The notes below the pieces were generated by a model, which saw only the letters and a program-made list of their open reading frames with translations, did not search any database and was not told the origin of the DNA. From a virus, in the IMG/VR virus record IMGVR_UViG_3300014914_000029, positions 1 to 28,618 of that record: a DNA stretch of 28,618 bases. One strand, written 5' to 3'. A program made the translations under genes and the position numbers. Each line of letters starts with the position of its first letter. Position 1 is the stretch's first letter. This document shows, in pieces, positions 5,455 to 28,020 of this stretch.

Positions 5455-6828
5455 GTGAAAAAGTTTTTAGCTTCTTTACTTAATGAACCGTGGTTGGTTG
5501 AAGAAGCATGGCTTGAAATTATGGTTCAGAGTTTCTTGGGGGATGATCTTTCTATAGATCCAGAAGCCCTGCAAGTTTTAAAATCTGAACGATTACTTGG
5601 CACACGTTCTGCTCAAGTTAGAGGATCCAAAGCGCATGTTCCAATCCATGGACCTATATTTGCTAAACCCAATATTCTTACAGAATGGTTGGGTATTGGT
5701 ACTGTTCTTAGTGATGTGGTTGGAGACATCCAAGCGGTCCTTGACAATCCTGACATTGAATCCATCTTATTGGACATTGATAGTCCTGGTGGAACAGTTA
5801 CTGGAATAAATGAAGCCGCCAATTTTATCAAAGCGTCTTCTAAACAAAAACCAATTACAGCTTATGTAGGTGGTGTAGGAGCTTCGGCGGCATACTGGCT
5901 TGCTTCCGCAGCAGACGAAATTGTACTTGATGCCACTTCAAGAGTTGGAAGTATCGGTGTAGTTGTTGCTTACCCAAATCCCCAGGGTGACGATGATGGA
6001 TACGTGGAAATTGTTAATAGTGCAAGCCCGAATAAACGTCCAGATATATCGACTAAAGAGGGCAAAAGTGTTGTTACAAAAGAGTTGGATGATCTTGCTG
6101 ATGTTTTCATTGCTACGGTTGCAGAGAATAGAGGTGTGTCTTCCAATAATGTTGTTAGCAACTTTGGACAAGGTGGAGTTTTAGTAGGTCAGAAAGCCAT
6201 ATCGGCTGGGATGGCCGATAGACTTGGCTCTTTTGAGGAGCTTATGGCAGATAATGAAGAAACTAATAAAGGAGATTTCTCAATGAAATTGACTATCGAC
6301 AAGCTTAAAGCTGATCATAAGGATGTTTATGATCAGGTGGTAGCTTCCGTAAAGCCGGATACCACAGCGCTTGAAGCTTCTCATGCTGAGGAGATTACAG
6401 CAAAGGATTCTGAAATTGCGGACTTGAAAGCAAAACTTACAGCTTCCGAATCCAGTGCAAATGATCTAAGTGATCGGGTTGTAGCTCTTGAGAAAAGAGA
6501 TACTTTGCGGGATGAAGAATCCGCAAAAGAAAAAGCTGCAAGTATTATGACAGGAGCCCTGGTTGCTTCCACCCTTCCTGAAAGACTACATGGGAAAGTT
6601 ACACAGGTTGATTATAACAAACATATGACTGATGGCAAACTTGATGTTGCCGCTTATACCACTGCTGTAAATGCAGAAGTAAAAGATTGGGAAGATACGA
6701 TTGGTGCAGTAGTACCACCCGTTCAAGGTGTTTCGACTCCTCCCGCTCAAGAATCTTCTGAGGATATAGAAAGTTCGGAAGCGGCTGATCGGATGTTTGG
6801 TTATGTGCAGAAAAAGAAGGAGGCGTAA
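5455..6828 (+). CDS. Head maturation protease (S49/SppA type) with C-terminal scaffold domain
   Basis: Residues about 60-265 form a ClpP/SppA-type S49 protease: DIDSPGG (107-113), the nucleophile motif GASAAYW (142-148, Ser144), and SRVGSIGVV (162-170). This family cleaves scaffold and sometimes portal or capsid during prohead maturation. Residues 277-457 are a Glu/Lys/Ala-rich coiled-coil scaffold domain. The layout matches the lambda C/Nu3 arrangement. The start is GTG at 5455, because the ATG two bases earlier runs straight into TGA; AAAGGAGG lies 6 bases upstream. The scaffold domain also has its own internal start (separate entry). It precedes the decoration and capsid genes, as expected. 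Confidence 0.9.
   Translation: MKKFLASLLNEPWLVEEAWLEIMVQSFLGDDLSIDPEALQVLKSERLLGTRSAQVRGSKAHVPIHGPIFAKPNILTEWLGIGTVLSDVVGDIQAVLDNPDIESILLDIDSPGGTVTGINEAANFIKASSKQKPITAYVGGVGASAAYWLASAADEIVLDATSRVGSIGVVVAYPNPQGDDDGYVEIVNSASPNKRPDISTKEGKSVVTKELDDLADVFIATVAENRGVSSNNVVSNFGQGGVLVGQKAISAGMADRLGSFEELMADNEETNKGDFSMKLTIDKLKADHKDVYDQVVASVKPDTTALEASHAEEITAKDSEIADLKAKLTASESSANDLSDRVVALEKRDTLRDEESAKEKAASIMTGALVASTLPERLHGKVTQVDYNKHMTDGKLDVAAYTTAVNAEVKDWEDTIGAVVPPVQGVSTPPAQESSEDIESSEAADRMFGYVQKKKEA
6268..6285 (+). promoter_or_regulatory. Internal ribosome site and ATG for the nested scaffold gene
   Basis: AAAGGAG (6268-6274) is followed by 8 bases and an ATG (6283-6285) in frame with the protease gene. It is as strong as the ribosome sites of the neighbouring genes and lies exactly at the protease/scaffold boundary. 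Confidence 0.7.
6283..6828 (+). CDS. Nested scaffold protein (in-frame internal start)
   Basis: A 181-residue product can start at residue 277 of the protease gene, using the internal ribosome site at 6268-6274. It begins MKLTIDKLKADHKDVYDQ and continues with a predicted coiled coil (SEIADLKAKL, ASESSANDLSDRVVALEKRD). The end is proline- and Ser/Glu-rich and then basic (YVQKKKEA). The lambda gpNu3 scaffold is made the same way from within the C protease gene. It would form the internal scaffold on which the capsid protein assembles and then be cleaved by the protease. The ribosome site is seen directly; separate translation is inferred. Confidence 0.7.
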   Translation: MKLTIDKLKADHKDVYDQVVASVKPDTTALEASHAEEITAKDSEIADLKAKLTASESSANDLSDRVVALEKRDTLRDEESAKEKAASIMTGALVASTLPERLHGKVTQVDYNKHMTDGKLDVAAYTTAVNAEVKDWEDTIGAVVPPVQGVSTPPAQESSEDIESSEAADRMFGYVQKKKEA

Positions 6829-11305: not shown

Positions 11306-11759
11306 TGTTGTAAGTCGTGAATCAGATTTTAAAAGAAGTATTAAAAAATACTTTCTGGATAATTTAGAGACCACGGAAGGTTTAAAATTATTTTTTGAAA
11401 CTTTGGAAGAAACACCACTTAATGGTTCTGGTGCTCCGTATACTAAATGGGTAATTATTGATTTTGGAAGAAGGGATTTAGGTCCTGTATCAGAACAGTA
11501 TATTTCTATTGATATATACACCAGGAATGATAAAGAAGGAGATACACTTGCTAAATTGGTTGATACTGTTATGGATTACATTATTGATGAAGATGCAACG
11601 AATGGTCTTGTTACTATTCCTTATTACGATACTACTGGTGTTTGGAGTGTAGTTGGTGGAATAATACCATATCTTCAACAATCTTTTGGTAGATTAGAAG
11701 GTGTGGATAAAACTTTGTTTAAATCCATCAATATTTTGTGTAAGTGGGGTGGGAAATAA
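11295..11759 (+). CDS. Putative tail terminator protein (lambda gpU-like)
   Basis: The 154-residue protein has the order expected of a tail terminator: an N-terminal helix (SRESDFKRSIKKYFLDNL), a strand with KWVIIDFGRRDLGP (about 51-64), then YISIDIYTRNDKEGDTLAKL and helix LVDTVMDYIID, and an SINILCKW end. It stands after the gp10-like gene and before the tail tube gene (the tube is separated by the Com-like and HNH genes). The GGAGG ribosome site is strong. Such proteins cap the growing tail tube. Confidence 0.65.
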   Translation: MALSVVSRESDFKRSIKKYFLDNLETTEGLKLFFETLEETPLNGSGAPYTKWVIIDFGRRDLGPVSEQYISIDIYTRNDKEGDTLAKLVDTVMDYIIDEDATNGLVTIPYYDTTGVWSVVGGIIPYLQQSFGRLEGVDKTLFKSINILCKWGGK

Positions 11760-11968
11760 TGTTTATCTGTTGTGAAAAATGTGGAAAGAAGTTAATAGAA
11801 AGATTGCCTAATGGTTTATGGCGTTTTAAATTTGGAAAAAGAGAGGGAGGAGTTTCGGTTGTGGATATGGAAATTCACGGGTCAATAAAGATGAAATGTA
11901 TTAAACGGACTTGTGATCATATAAACATCTTGAATTACTTCCCTTCTGGAGGAACAAATGTTGTGTAA
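11759..11968 (+). CDS. Com-like small zinc-binding protein, 69 aa
   Basis: I chose the ATG at 11759, which overlaps the previous stop (TAATG) and follows GGGGTGGG; an upstream in-frame GTG at 11744 is less likely. The protein has a CxxC knuckle (CEKCGKKL, cysteines at 5 and 8) and a second pair in KMKCIKRTCDHINIL. This order resembles phage Mu Com, an RNA-binding zinc finger that activates translation of the mom DNA-modification gene, and many short Com-like proteins in other phages. Here the second pair is Cx4C rather than CxxC. No mom gene is in the window. Function is therefore unproven. Confidence 0.6.
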   Translation: MFICCEKCGKKLIERLPNGLWRFKFGKREGGVSVVDMEIHGSIKMKCIKRTCDHINILNYFPSGGTNVV

Positions 11969-12587
11969 ACTTTCAAATTGTTCTACCAAAGTATATGCTA
12001 AAAAATTATGTCGTAGGCATTACGAACAAATGAGGACTAAAGGATTTACAACAGATTTACCTAAAAATGAAAGAAAAATACAAAAATTCATTAAAAAAGG
12101 AAATACATATTTAATTGAATTATGTGGTAGGGATGGGAAAGTATTAAAATATGCTGTGATTGATGAACAGGATTATAACCTTGTTAAGAAATATAAATGT
12201 AATATTACTGGTGGAAAATATGTCCGTTGTTATTGCAAAGGAGAAGAAACAAAATTATTACATCAAATAATATTGGGGCATTCTTGGGTAGATCATAAAG
12301 ATTTGGATGGTTTTAATTGCAGACGTTTTAATTTACGACCGTGTACACCACAACAAAATCAGTTTAATAAACGAAGTTATAAAAATTCATCTTTTCTTTT
12401 TAAAGGAGTTCATCGTGTTAAAAGAAAAAAAGGGTATAGATTTATTGCACAAATACGGGTAAATAAGAAAAATATTCATCTTGGAATATTTGATTCAGAA
12501 GTCAAAGCTCATGAAGAATATTCCAAGTATGCAAATATTTATCATAAAGAGTTTGCAAATAAATCTGTTTCTGTTAGTATAAATTAG
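11958..12587 (+). CDS. HNH endonuclease with AP2 domain (free-standing homing endonuclease)
   Basis: Three parts are visible in 209 residues. The N-terminus has a finger-like C-x4-C-x9-C-x2-H motif (C3 to H21). Residues about 105-135 carry the HNH core: VDHKDLDGFNCRRFNL, then RPCTPQQNQ. Residues about 145-200 form an AP2-type DNA-binding domain (GVHRVKRKKGYRFIAQI, HLGIFDSEVKAHEEYSKYA). This combination is common in phage homing endonucleases, which cut related phage DNA and spread into it. The ATG has GGAGG 5-6 bases upstream. It is inserted between tail-terminator and tail-tube genes. The gene is rich in AAA/ATT codons compared with its neighbours. Confidence 0.9.
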   Translation: MLCKLSNCSTKVYAKKLCRRHYEQMRTKGFTTDLPKNERKIQKFIKKGNTYLIELCGRDGKVLKYAVIDEQDYNLVKKYKCNITGGKYVRCYCKGEETKLLHQIILGHSWVDHKDLDGFNCRRFNLRPCTPQQNQFNKRSYKNSSFLFKGVHRVKRKKGYRFIAQIRVNKKNIHLGIFDSEVKAHEEYSKYANIYHKEFANKSVSVSIN

Positions 12588-12681: not shown

Positions 12682-13578
12682 ATGTCCCGTACGGGTCCTG
12701 TTACCAAAGATACCAGTACTGTTGCATTGGGGTTAGCCCAGATTAGAGTTGGTAGTGCAAGTGCTAATATAGCATTAATTGCACCTCAACTTGATTCGGA
12801 TGATTCCATCGGTGCTCTTGCATCAACAAAGTTTACTGGTACTGTTGACTATTGGAAGCTGGAATCAGGCTTTCCTATGCTGGAAGATTTGACTCTTCCG
12901 ATTAGGGAAGCGTCCATGCTTGAATGTGAATTTAAAGAAATAACACCTTATAACCTTGCGCTTGCTCGTGGTATTGATCCTCTGGATGATATTCCGGCAA
13001 CTGCAACCAAGGGAACTGTTGTAAGCACATCTGGAACAATTGTTGGTGACATTACTGTTACTGATGATGCCGGTCCAGTTACTGAAAATTACACCGTATT
13101 TTTTACTGGTGCAACTGCAGGTGATATTATCGGTAGTGTTTCTGGTCTTGTTGAATCATTTGTTGCTGTGACTGGTGCAATTGAACCAGATAATGGTGGT
13201 AATCCGTATTTCAGTCTACCTGCTAATTTTTTCAGTGGTACGTGGGCTGCGGATGACAGTTATACATTTAGCTGTACCGCTTTTGTTGCTGGAAGTTCTG
13301 CTTATACTGATCCTCATGCAGGAGAGATTAAACTTGGAGCTTTGACTGCACCTGCTTATGTAAGAATGGAAGCAGTATACACTTATCCTGATGGTTCAAA
13401 TACCATGACCATTATTTTCCCGAGAGCAAATTGTACAACTTCTGTTGAAATTGATTTGCAATCAGAGGATAATGCAAATGTTCCACTTACGTTTGAAGCC
13501 AAAAGAGCGGATTCAGAAACGACTGGTGGAAATGCTGTTTGGGATTCTATGACTTTGGGACGCATCGTATTTGCGTAG
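12682..13578 (+). CDS. Major tail tube protein
   Basis: The 298-residue protein lies in the lambda V position, before the tail chaperone genes, and ends just before a strong terminator. The framework matches a paralogue at 27472: N-terminal GLAQIRVG (16-23), FTGTVDYWKL (51-60), and C-terminal EAVYTYPDGSNTMTIIFP (230-247) and GRIVFA. Between residues about 104 and 212 there is a Gly/Thr-rich insertion (for example FFSGTWAADDSYTFS), probably an extra surface domain. Tube subunits of this type form hexameric rings around the DNA channel. The ribosome site is AAAGGAGA. Abundant-protein codon use and the terminator fit its expected high expression. Confidence 0.85.
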   Translation: MSRTGPVTKDTSTVALGLAQIRVGSASANIALIAPQLDSDDSIGALASTKFTGTVDYWKLESGFPMLEDLTLPIREASMLECEFKEITPYNLALARGIDPLDDIPATATKGTVVSTSGTIVGDITVTDDAGPVTENYTVFFTGATAGDIIGSVSGLVESFVAVTGAIEPDNGGNPYFSLPANFFSGTWAADDSYTFSCTAFVAGSSAYTDPHAGEIKLGALTAPAYVRMEAVYTYPDGSNTMTIIFPRANCTTSVEIDLQSEDNANVPLTFEAKRADSETTGGNAVWDSMTLGRIVFA

Positions 13579-13588
13579 AATATTTAAC

Positions 13589-13617
13589 TTGACAACATAG
13601 AAACTCCCTGTTAAATG
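13589..13617 (+). promoter_or_regulatory. Candidate promoter overlapping the terminator's left arm
   Basis: A perfect TTGACA (13589-13594) is followed 16 bases later by TTAAAT (13611-13616) or 17 bases later by TAAATG (13612-13617). Both -10 boxes are poor. If active, transcription would start near 13623 and miss the left arm of the hairpin that hides the ribosome site of the second HNH gene. Confidence 0.35.
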
Positions 13618-13651
13618 TTAGTAATAAAACATCGTAACAGGGAGTTTTTTT
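13601..13651 (+). terminator. Intrinsic terminator of the tail tube gene, containing the next gene's ribosome site
   Basis: AAACTCCCTGTTA (13601-13613) and TAACAGGGAGTTT (13635-13647) are perfect 13-bp arms. A 5-bp inner stem (ATGTT with AACAT) lies inside the loop, and T residues run from 13645 to 13651. The ATG of the second HNH gene begins at 13652, and its only ribosome site, GGGAG (13640-13644), is in the 3' arm. Confidence 0.85.
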
Positions 13652-14287
13652 ATGGCTAAAAAATATGTAAAAAGAATTTGTTATCATGAAGGATGTGAAA
13701 GAATTGCAGTACAGTCTTTTGAAAGTAAATGGTATTGCAATAAACACATATCAAGGTGTAGAAAATATGGTGATTCTTCTATTAATCGTAATCCTAAATT
13801 TATGGGAACTATCAAAGAACGTTTATTGCATAATGCCGTTGTTAATCCCAAGACTAATTGTTGGGAGTGGCAATTAAGTTTAGATAAAGGTGGTTATGGA
13901 AATATTTCTATTGGGAATATTCCTTACCAAGTCCATAGAGTTTCGTATGAAACATTTGTACATAAACTTGTGCCAAAAACGTTACATGTTTTGCATGATT
14001 GTGATAATCGAAGATGCATAAACCCAGAACATTTGTTTACTGGTACAAATTATGATAACATGCAAGACAGAAATATCAAAGGTAGACAGGCAAAAGGCAC
14101 TATGTTTTCTACTTCTAAACTTACTGAAGATAAAGTAAAAGATATTAAAAATCAATTTAAAGAATTTGTCCCTTTTGATGAAATAGGGTTTTCTAATCAA
14201 TGTGGATTAATTGCAGATAAGTACAACGTTAGTGGTAAATTAATTCGTAATATATACCATGGAACTGCTTGGAAACATGTTGATTGA
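13652..14287 (+). CDS. HNH endonuclease (free-standing homing endonuclease)
   Basis: The 211-residue product has an N-terminal C-x4-C-x13-C-x2-H finger (C10 to H32), a WEWQ-type start of the nuclease domain (CWEWQLSLDKGGYG, about 71-84), and the core HVLHDCDNRRCINPEHLF followed by TGTNYDNMQDR, a classic HNH_3 pattern. The C-terminus (KLTEDKVKDI, ADKYNVSGKLIRNIYHGTAW) looks like a helix-turn-helix that helps bind the target. It is inserted between the tail tube terminator and the promoter of the chaperone genes. Its start codon follows the terminator T-run directly, so expression is likely restricted. It is a different nuclease subtype from the first HNH gene, which carries an AP2 domain. Confidence 0.9.
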   Translation: MAKKYVKRICYHEGCERIAVQSFESKWYCNKHISRCRKYGDSSINRNPKFMGTIKERLLHNAVVNPKTNCWEWQLSLDKGGYGNISIGNIPYQVHRVSYETFVHKLVPKTLHVLHDCDNRRCINPEHLFTGTNYDNMQDRNIKGRQAKGTMFSTSKLTEDKVKDIKNQFKEFVPFDEIGFSNQCGLIADKYNVSGKLIRNIYHGTAWKHVD

Positions 14288-14299
14288 CATTTTTTTTGC

Positions 14300-14328
14300 T
14301 TGACATCTTCTTTCCGCCTTCGTATATT
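14300..14328 (+). promoter_or_regulatory. Strong sigma70-type promoter for tail chaperone and tape measure genes
   Basis: TTGACA (14300-14305), a 17-base spacer and TATATT (14323-14328) make a near-consensus promoter; a second TATAAT lies at 14332-14337. It follows the second HNH gene and a T-run, and leads into the AAGGAG ribosome site of the ATG at 14388. It would restart transcription after the tube-gene terminator. Confidence 0.75.
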
Positions 14329-14387: not shown

Positions 14388-14771
14388 ATGTCCGAAACAA
14401 ATATGAACCCAGATATCACGACCGTGAAGGTTGGCGTTCGCAAACTCAAAGAAATCACAATTTACCCATTGTCAATTGCCAGTCAATTATCTGCTACTGA
14501 ACTTATAGGAGAGATAGTTGCTAAATTTGCTTCTTTTGAAGATGTGGCGGAGGCTGAAGTTGTGCAGATATTCTTAGATATTTTAAAAGATAATGTTGGT
14601 AAATTACTGGCGTTCGTTACTGATGAAAAAATTGATCTTGAAGAATTAACAAATCCACAATTAGAAGCCATTGTTAATGTTATTTATGATTGTAACTATA
14701 GAGGAATTGTAAAAAACTCGAAGGACCTCATCGAAAAAGCGAAGCCACTTGTAGCCTCGATGAGGTCATAA
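14388..14771 (+). CDS. Tail assembly chaperone (gpG-like), zero-frame product
   Basis: This 127-residue protein directly precedes the tape measure region, as lambda gpG does. It is mainly helical and acidic (LSATELIGEIVAKFASFED, VVQIFLDILKDNVGKLLAF, LEELTNPQLEAIVNVIYD). Such chaperones coat the tape measure protein during tail assembly and are not part of the finished tail. Near its end (14711-14717) is an A AAA AAC slippery site followed by a perfect stem, so part of the ribosomes should shift to -1 and make the longer product. It has an AAGGAG ribosome site and its own promoter upstream. Confidence 0.82.
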   Translation: MSETNMNPDITTVKVGVRKLKEITIYPLSIASQLSATELIGEIVAKFASFEDVAEAEVVQIFLDILKDNVGKLLAFVTDEKIDLEELTNPQLEAIVNVIYDCNYRGIVKNSKDLIEKAKPLVASMRS

Positions 14772-27461: not shown

Positions 27462-27471
27462 AGGTGGTATG

Positions 27472-28020
27472 ATGATAGGAACTAAACTTGTTGAAACAGA
27501 GTCGTTGTATTTTGGATTAGCTCAATTGTATCTTGGGGATAGTGGAACACATGAATCTTCCGTAATTGCGGTACTTTCTGATTCTGATTATTTTGGTTGT
27601 TCTGTCAAAGTATCGTTTGATATAACCCGTGATTTACAAGAGCATTATATTTCTCAAGGTGGTGTTAAAGTTTTATCAGATATCCTTTTAAGTGCTTCAG
27701 GATTGGTTGTCAATACTGAGTTTGTTGAATTAACTGAAAAGAATTTTTCTTATTCTTTAGGAGGAGATGGTTCCGATACAAATATTTTAATTAATTTATT
27801 AACACAACCATCGGCGTTACGAGCAGAATTGGTTTTTACGTACCCTAATAAAGTCAATACCATGACATTGATATTGCCAAAAGTTAAAGTTGGAACTACA
27901 TCAATCCCATTTGTTTTTCAACCAGAAGAACCAATGGAAGTGCCCGTAAAATTAACTGCTTTGAAAAGCACACATGCTAATTGGGATGCTGAACCATTTG
28001 GTAAGATAATATTTGAATAA
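27472..28020 (+). CDS. Tail tube-like protein (paralogue of the major tail protein)
   Basis: Of two adjacent ATGs (27469 and 27472), the second leaves better spacing to AAGGTGG. The 182-residue protein aligns along most of the major tail protein framework: GLAQLYLGDS vs GLAQIRVGSA, ELVFTYPNKVNTMTLILPKV vs EAVYTYPDGSNTMTIIFPRA, EVPVKLTALKS vs NVPLTFEAKRA, FGKIIFE vs LGRIVFA. It lacks the roughly 110-residue insertion of the major protein. A second tube-fold protein near the tail-tip genes could be a distal tube, hub or adaptor ring. It has no strong terminator after it. Similarity is seen directly; role is inferred. Confidence 0.75.
   Translation: MIGTKLVETESLYFGLAQLYLGDSGTHESSVIAVLSDSDYFGCSVKVSFDITRDLQEHYISQGGVKVLSDILLSASGLVVNTEFVELTEKNFSYSLGGDGSDTNILINLLTQPSALRAELVFTYPNKVNTMTLILPKVKVGTTSIPFVFQPEEPMEVPVKLTALKSTHANWDAEPFGKIIFE

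Follow-up and report, generated by a model that had tools for sequence, protein, structure and literature searches.

The segment at positions 13589-13652 of the window, the whole 28,618-nucleotide stretch of viral DNA that was analysed, probably acts as a read-through shield for the HNH endonuclease gene that follows it. The anatomy of this leader, its recurrence, its enrichment in front of HNH genes, the co-variation of its arms and its placement behind virion genes were all observed. From the sequence we infer promoter activity, a translation block, termination, timing and a selective reason. RNA reading through from the upstream tail tube gene would hold both arms of a 13-bp hairpin, which would form and cause most of this RNA to end at a T-run; in RNA that passed the T-run the HNH ribosome site would be buried, and no nuclease would be made from tail-tube transcripts. 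The spacer between the -35 and -10 elements of a putative sigma70-type promoter, with a start near 13623, overlies the left arm. Because the left arm lies within this spacer, RNA from the nested promoter would lack it, would carry neither the terminator nor the lock on the ribosome site, and would be translated. The HNH gene would then be expressed at a modest level and from its own promoter alone, independently of the strong transcription of the essential gene beside it.

The two genes that flank the leader were identified by homology. The tail tube protein gene (12682-13578, + strand), the proposed source of the read-through RNA, had 55 relatives in viral contigs and a weak match to Pfam Phage_TTP_17, and is followed at a short distance by the tape measure gene. 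The HNH homing-type endonuclease gene (13652-14287, + strand) encodes 211 amino acids, with matches to Pfam HNH_3 (PF13392, 3e-8, above the cut-off) and to a PHROG endonuclease family (9e-28); the catalytic motif residues were conserved, and an N-terminal zinc finger and a C-terminal HTH are likely. Consistent with mobility, the HNH gene was missing from the same slot in most relatives of the tail tube gene. When viral contigs were searched with the HNH protein as a single sequence, no close relatives were found; alignment-based searches recovered relatives there instead. The window has another HNH-type endonuclease gene (11744-12587, or 11958-12587), which belongs to PHROG 99 and whose C-terminal part looked AP2-like by eye; it overlaps its upstream gene and the hairpin device was absent from it. 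In the window and in contigs L017, L018 and L042, a PHROG 99 HNH-type gene that lacks the device directly precedes the tail tube gene, and in the window and L018 the tail tube gene has HNH genes on both sides. A shorter protein encoded at 27469-28020 is similar to the C-terminal region of the tail tube protein, with a match of 36% over 83 amino acids (E 8e-15), and is possibly a tail tube paralogue.

The gap between the tail tube and HNH genes is 73 bp. From the sequence and its calculated fold, the left arm of the hairpin, AAACTCCCTGTTA, was placed at 13601-13613 (+ strand), inside the promoter spacer, and the right arm, TAACAGGGAGTTT, at 13635-13647 (+ strand). The arms form 13 Watson-Crick pairs followed by an extra G-U pair (13600/13648), and an inner 5-bp helix (13615-13619/13628-13632) is located within the 21-nt loop; because of the length of this loop, the hairpin was overlooked by a terminator scan. 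The ribosome site of the HNH gene, (A)GGGAG (13639-13644, + strand), is in the right arm. The stem is followed by a T7 run (13645-13651, + strand), which makes the hairpin terminator-like, and then the ATG (13652). The preliminary description of a 13-bp stem with GGGAG at its end, a T-run and an ATG immediately after it was therefore accurate.

The 121-nt region folded at -26.2 kcal/mol, compared to -16.1 kcal/mol in shuffles (z -3.4), and only 1 of 200 shuffles was its equal, which established that the window hairpin is better than chance without help from relatives. The calculated cost of opening the ribosome site fell from 19.4 to 8.1 kcal/mol when the RNA began at the nested start, a saving of approximately 11 kcal/mol; by fold and opening energy, the site is predicted to be sequestered in RNA initiated upstream. 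The GC-rich stem and T-run also make the window hairpin a predicted intrinsic terminator, as had been proposed. This part of the proposal held for the window but was not general: a T-run followed the stem in the window, L089 and L336/L333, and was absent from L014, L018 and L029.

A candidate promoter had also been proposed near 13589, and here the evidence from the window was mixed. The -35 element TTGACA (13589-13594, + strand) was present, but the -10 element was weak: an extended TGT-TAAATG (13609-13617, + strand), with the TG at 13609-13610 and TAAATG at 13612-13617 after a 17-nt spacer, matched the consensus poorly (3/6). An alternative, TTAAAT (13611-13616, + strand), has a 16-nt spacer. 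The start predicted from the -10 position (13623-13624, + strand) is in the hairpin loop. Among + strand pairings in the window, TTGACA ranked 47th with TAAATG and 24th with TTAAAT, as scored with a generic promoter matrix; the site also failed a stricter promoter scan. The two sigma70-like sites that scored best on the + strand were those at 893-921 (TTGACA-17-TATCAT), before the terminase region, and at 14300-14328 (TTGACA-17-TATATT), before a tail gene. The nested promoter of the window may be weak or dead, and from the window alone it is not beyond chance, so that a comparison with relatives was needed.

In most relatives of the tail tube gene the slot contained no HNH gene, only a plain hairpin and then the next tail gene. 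An HNH gene was found behind a homologous tail tube gene in five contigs, namely the window, L014, L018, L029 and L089, and all five shared one layout: TTGAC[A/T] and a TA-initial -10 separated by 17 nt, a promoter spacer that covers the left arm, and a right arm that contains the ribosome site. In the four contigs other than the window the -35 element was TTGACA or TTGACT, the spacing was exactly 17 nt and the -10 elements were TATATA, TATGGT, TATTTT and TATTTC; the left arm was mostly within the spacer, the predicted start was in the loop and the ATG began 0-2 nt past the right arm. By this spacing and left-arm register, RNA from the candidate promoter would lack the left arm in every one of the slot genes. 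In Markov shuffles the TTGAC[A/T]-17-TA pattern occurred by chance in 0.3-1% of such leaders, and the product of these frequencies over the five leaders was 1.6e-12, a value that ignores common ancestry.

The arms of the slot leaders were aligned on a CTG/CAG core, which gave 13 anchored pair positions. Ten of these were paired in all five leaders and the remaining three in four of the five, and two or three pair types occurred at 10 of the 13 positions; the arms differ between phages but co-vary. Furthermore, L029 and L089 have an additional, separate hairpin upstream of the one that hides the ribosome site. Since these two contigs have a second hairpin and no T-run follows the stem in three of the five leaders (L014, L018 and L029), what the five have in common is the hidden ribosome site with its nested promoter, not termination.

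Further observations were made at this slot. A T8 run (14290-14297, + strand) directly 3' of the HNH gene in the window was similar to the T-run that belongs to the resident tail-tube terminator of L001, which has no HNH gene; this similarity suggests that insertion of the HNH gene displaced the old terminator stem and brought a new one. The resident promoter of the next tail gene (gene 14388-14771; promoter TTGACA-17-TATATT, 14300-14328, + strand) had counterparts in L001 and L003. In L012, an inverted repeat (CCTTCTGAGTGAGAT/ATCTCACTCAGAAGG) was located after the tail tube gene, at 5983-6076, just before a very short ORF, and is possibly the leftover leader of a lost HNH gene.

The survey was then extended to other phage genes. 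HNH loci were collected from viral contigs with HNH alignments, and one procedure was used for all genes across 385 loci; a promoter was counted as placed when its predicted start was past the midpoint of the left arm. Among 167 HNH genes, 24 had a stem of at least 12 bp that hides the ribosome site; among the 1427 others, 27 did. Such a stem together with a placed promoter was found in 19/167 HNH genes compared to 1/1427 others (p = 2e-18), in samples whose HNH and control genes are phylogenetically non-independent and include a few near-duplicate HNH rows. With an earlier version of the scanner, a control matched for intergenic gap gave 17/146 versus 2/932, loci that were collected once the pattern had been noticed gave 7/113 versus 1/383 (p = 2e-4), and dinucleotide shuffles of the HNH leaders gave 2.1 expected stems of at least 12 bp compared to the 20 observed. 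When the best inverted repeat was taken without requiring a ribosome site, its right arm coincided with the ribosome site in half of the HNH genes (23 of 46), compared to 26 of 235 other genes (p = 1e-8).

Further examples of the leader, from genes whose proteins were mostly less than 50% identical, were found in L139, L156, L167, L173, L185, L224, L277, L279, L317 and L336. In most of the other cases, RNA from the nested start likewise had a lower calculated cost of opening the ribosome site, by 10-30 kcal/mol; there was no such switch in L195 and L361, and no good promoter was found at the stems of L222, L297 and L377. The close relatives L333 and L336 differed by two compensatory double substitutions in the arms and one change from G-U to A-U, with the -35 element and the spacing unchanged. 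In L392 (449-502; GenBank MW202691, a metagenome podovirus from Manatee Spring), the HNH gene follows a P22-type coat gene and TATAAT is inside the left arm of the hairpin that hides the ribosome site. Approximately 85% of the HNH genes were without the device, and it was absent from the T7-like HNH genes of cultured phages, which are packed in operons.

The genes in front of leader-bearing HNH genes mostly encode abundant virion proteins: a P22-type coat in L173, L185 and L392; an SU10-type capsid in L277, L279, L333/L336 and L339; other capsids in L155 and L317; a tail fibre in L139 and L156; and the tail tube in the five slot contigs. In a uniform test that excluded the tail-tube set, leaders were found in 8 of 18 HNH genes behind capsid-like genes and 7 of 111 behind others (p = 1e-4), with the capsid-like set defined by capsid queries taken partly from leader-bearing loci, a bias that favours this result. 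A blind sample free of that bias gave 7/15 versus 3/50 (p = 8e-4). Of 50 sampled HNH genes without a scanned stem, three were located behind a capsid gene; a hairpin was seen on folding in two of them. Folding revealed a few more leaders behind capsid genes that the scanner had not detected. Judged by the assigned genes, the device accompanies neighbours with presumed heavy late transcripts, namely the major capsid, tail tube and tail fibre genes.

It is unlikely that the hairpin is an intrinsic terminator of the tail tube gene alone, with the ribosome site overlap a by-product of tight HNH insertion and TTGACA present by chance. The 13-bp stem with T7 and the lack of a second hairpin at this place in the window agree with that explanation, as does the hairpin found directly after the tail tube gene in most relatives without an HNH gene, with a T-run in some (L001, L003). 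The explanation is largely refuted by the retention of the stem over the ribosome site and of the promoter in the three slot leaders that have no T-run; in addition, L029 and L089 have a separate upstream hairpin, and unrelated phages have the overlap and the nested promoter as well.

Still less probable is a DNA operator, in which the endonuclease or another protein would bind the inverted repeat and block the promoter. The repeats do overlap promoter elements, and I-TevI represses itself through an operator that overlaps its late promoter (PMC2988022). However, the arms differ greatly in sequence and the loops in length (3-37 nt), and an operator would not need the right arm to be on the ribosome site, as it was in half of the HNH repeats compared to 11% of the others. 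The repeat could be an operator in addition to hiding the ribosome site. An RNA thermometer or ligand-controlled leader, in which a signal melts or switches the hairpin and exposes the ribosome site, would also account for a site hidden by a stem, but is highly improbable: thermometers need stems less stable than those of 12-20 bp, the leader had no match in Rfam, and the placement of the promoter removes one arm, which makes a signal unnecessary.

The read-through shield resembles leaders known from T-even phages. In T4 I-TevI, I-TevII and I-TevIII, a stable hairpin hides the ribosome site on RNA from upstream promoters, and RNA from a nearby promoter lacks the left part and leaves the site free (PMC2988022). 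These genes are carried by introns of early or middle genes, have T4 middle or late promoters and are switched on late; in contrast, the window has a sigma70-type promoter whose spacer is over the arm, and its endonuclease gene is free-standing and follows a late virion gene. The T-run in some of the present leaders is a further difference. The free-standing genes mobE (HNH) of the Aeromonas phage Aeh1 and segB of T4 also have a hairpin that hides the ribosome site and a promoter of their own (PMC2988022, PMC3014915). Unlike the window, they belong to T-even phages, have late promoters and have nrd or tRNA genes as neighbours, and these reviews report no association with genes for capsid or tail tube proteins. 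In the leaders of T4 genes e and soc a hairpin blocks read-through RNA, as proposed here, and in gene e late promoters inside the hairpin remove the left arm; however, these are ordinary non-mobile phage genes with T4 late promoters. The window had a sigma70-like TTGACA-17 arrangement in place of a T4-type late (TATAAATA) or middle promoter with late expression. By its predicted fold and layout, its leader works like those of I-TevI, segB and mobE, yet it is not a T4-type member. No report of this layout outside the T-even phages was found in open-access papers, the scope of the search.

The proposal that the ribosome site is hidden in read-through RNA and free on internally started RNA, which would keep the endonuclease quiet beside a late gene, was supported at the level of sequence by the layout common to all five slot genes, the HNH enrichment and the position behind major virion genes. 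If transcription of the late genes needs other signals, the nuclease would be made early and shut off late, in the opposite order to T4. However, good sigma70-like sites of the window are also found in front of the terminase region (893) and of the tail gene that follows (14300), so that either order of timing may apply. That a nested promoter-hairpin shield is widespread for HNH genes behind the strongest virion genes of diverse phages, with timing opposite to that of T4 (early on through host sigma70, late off), is a tentative generalization, to which we give slightly less than an even chance.

The device looks like a common means of keeping endonuclease genes quiet beside the busiest genes of a phage. 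If this is true, hairpin-timed endonuclease expression, known in T-even phages, would be a general solution that works on ordinary sigma70 promoters, and its layout would be a sequence signature by which further cases could be found and tested. Such leaders would also be compact natural parts, in which a single short DNA segment serves as promoter, terminator and translation lock. Selfish endonucleases could then settle beside the most transcribed essential genes of a phage, and the shield would explain how HNH genes tolerate such neighbours.
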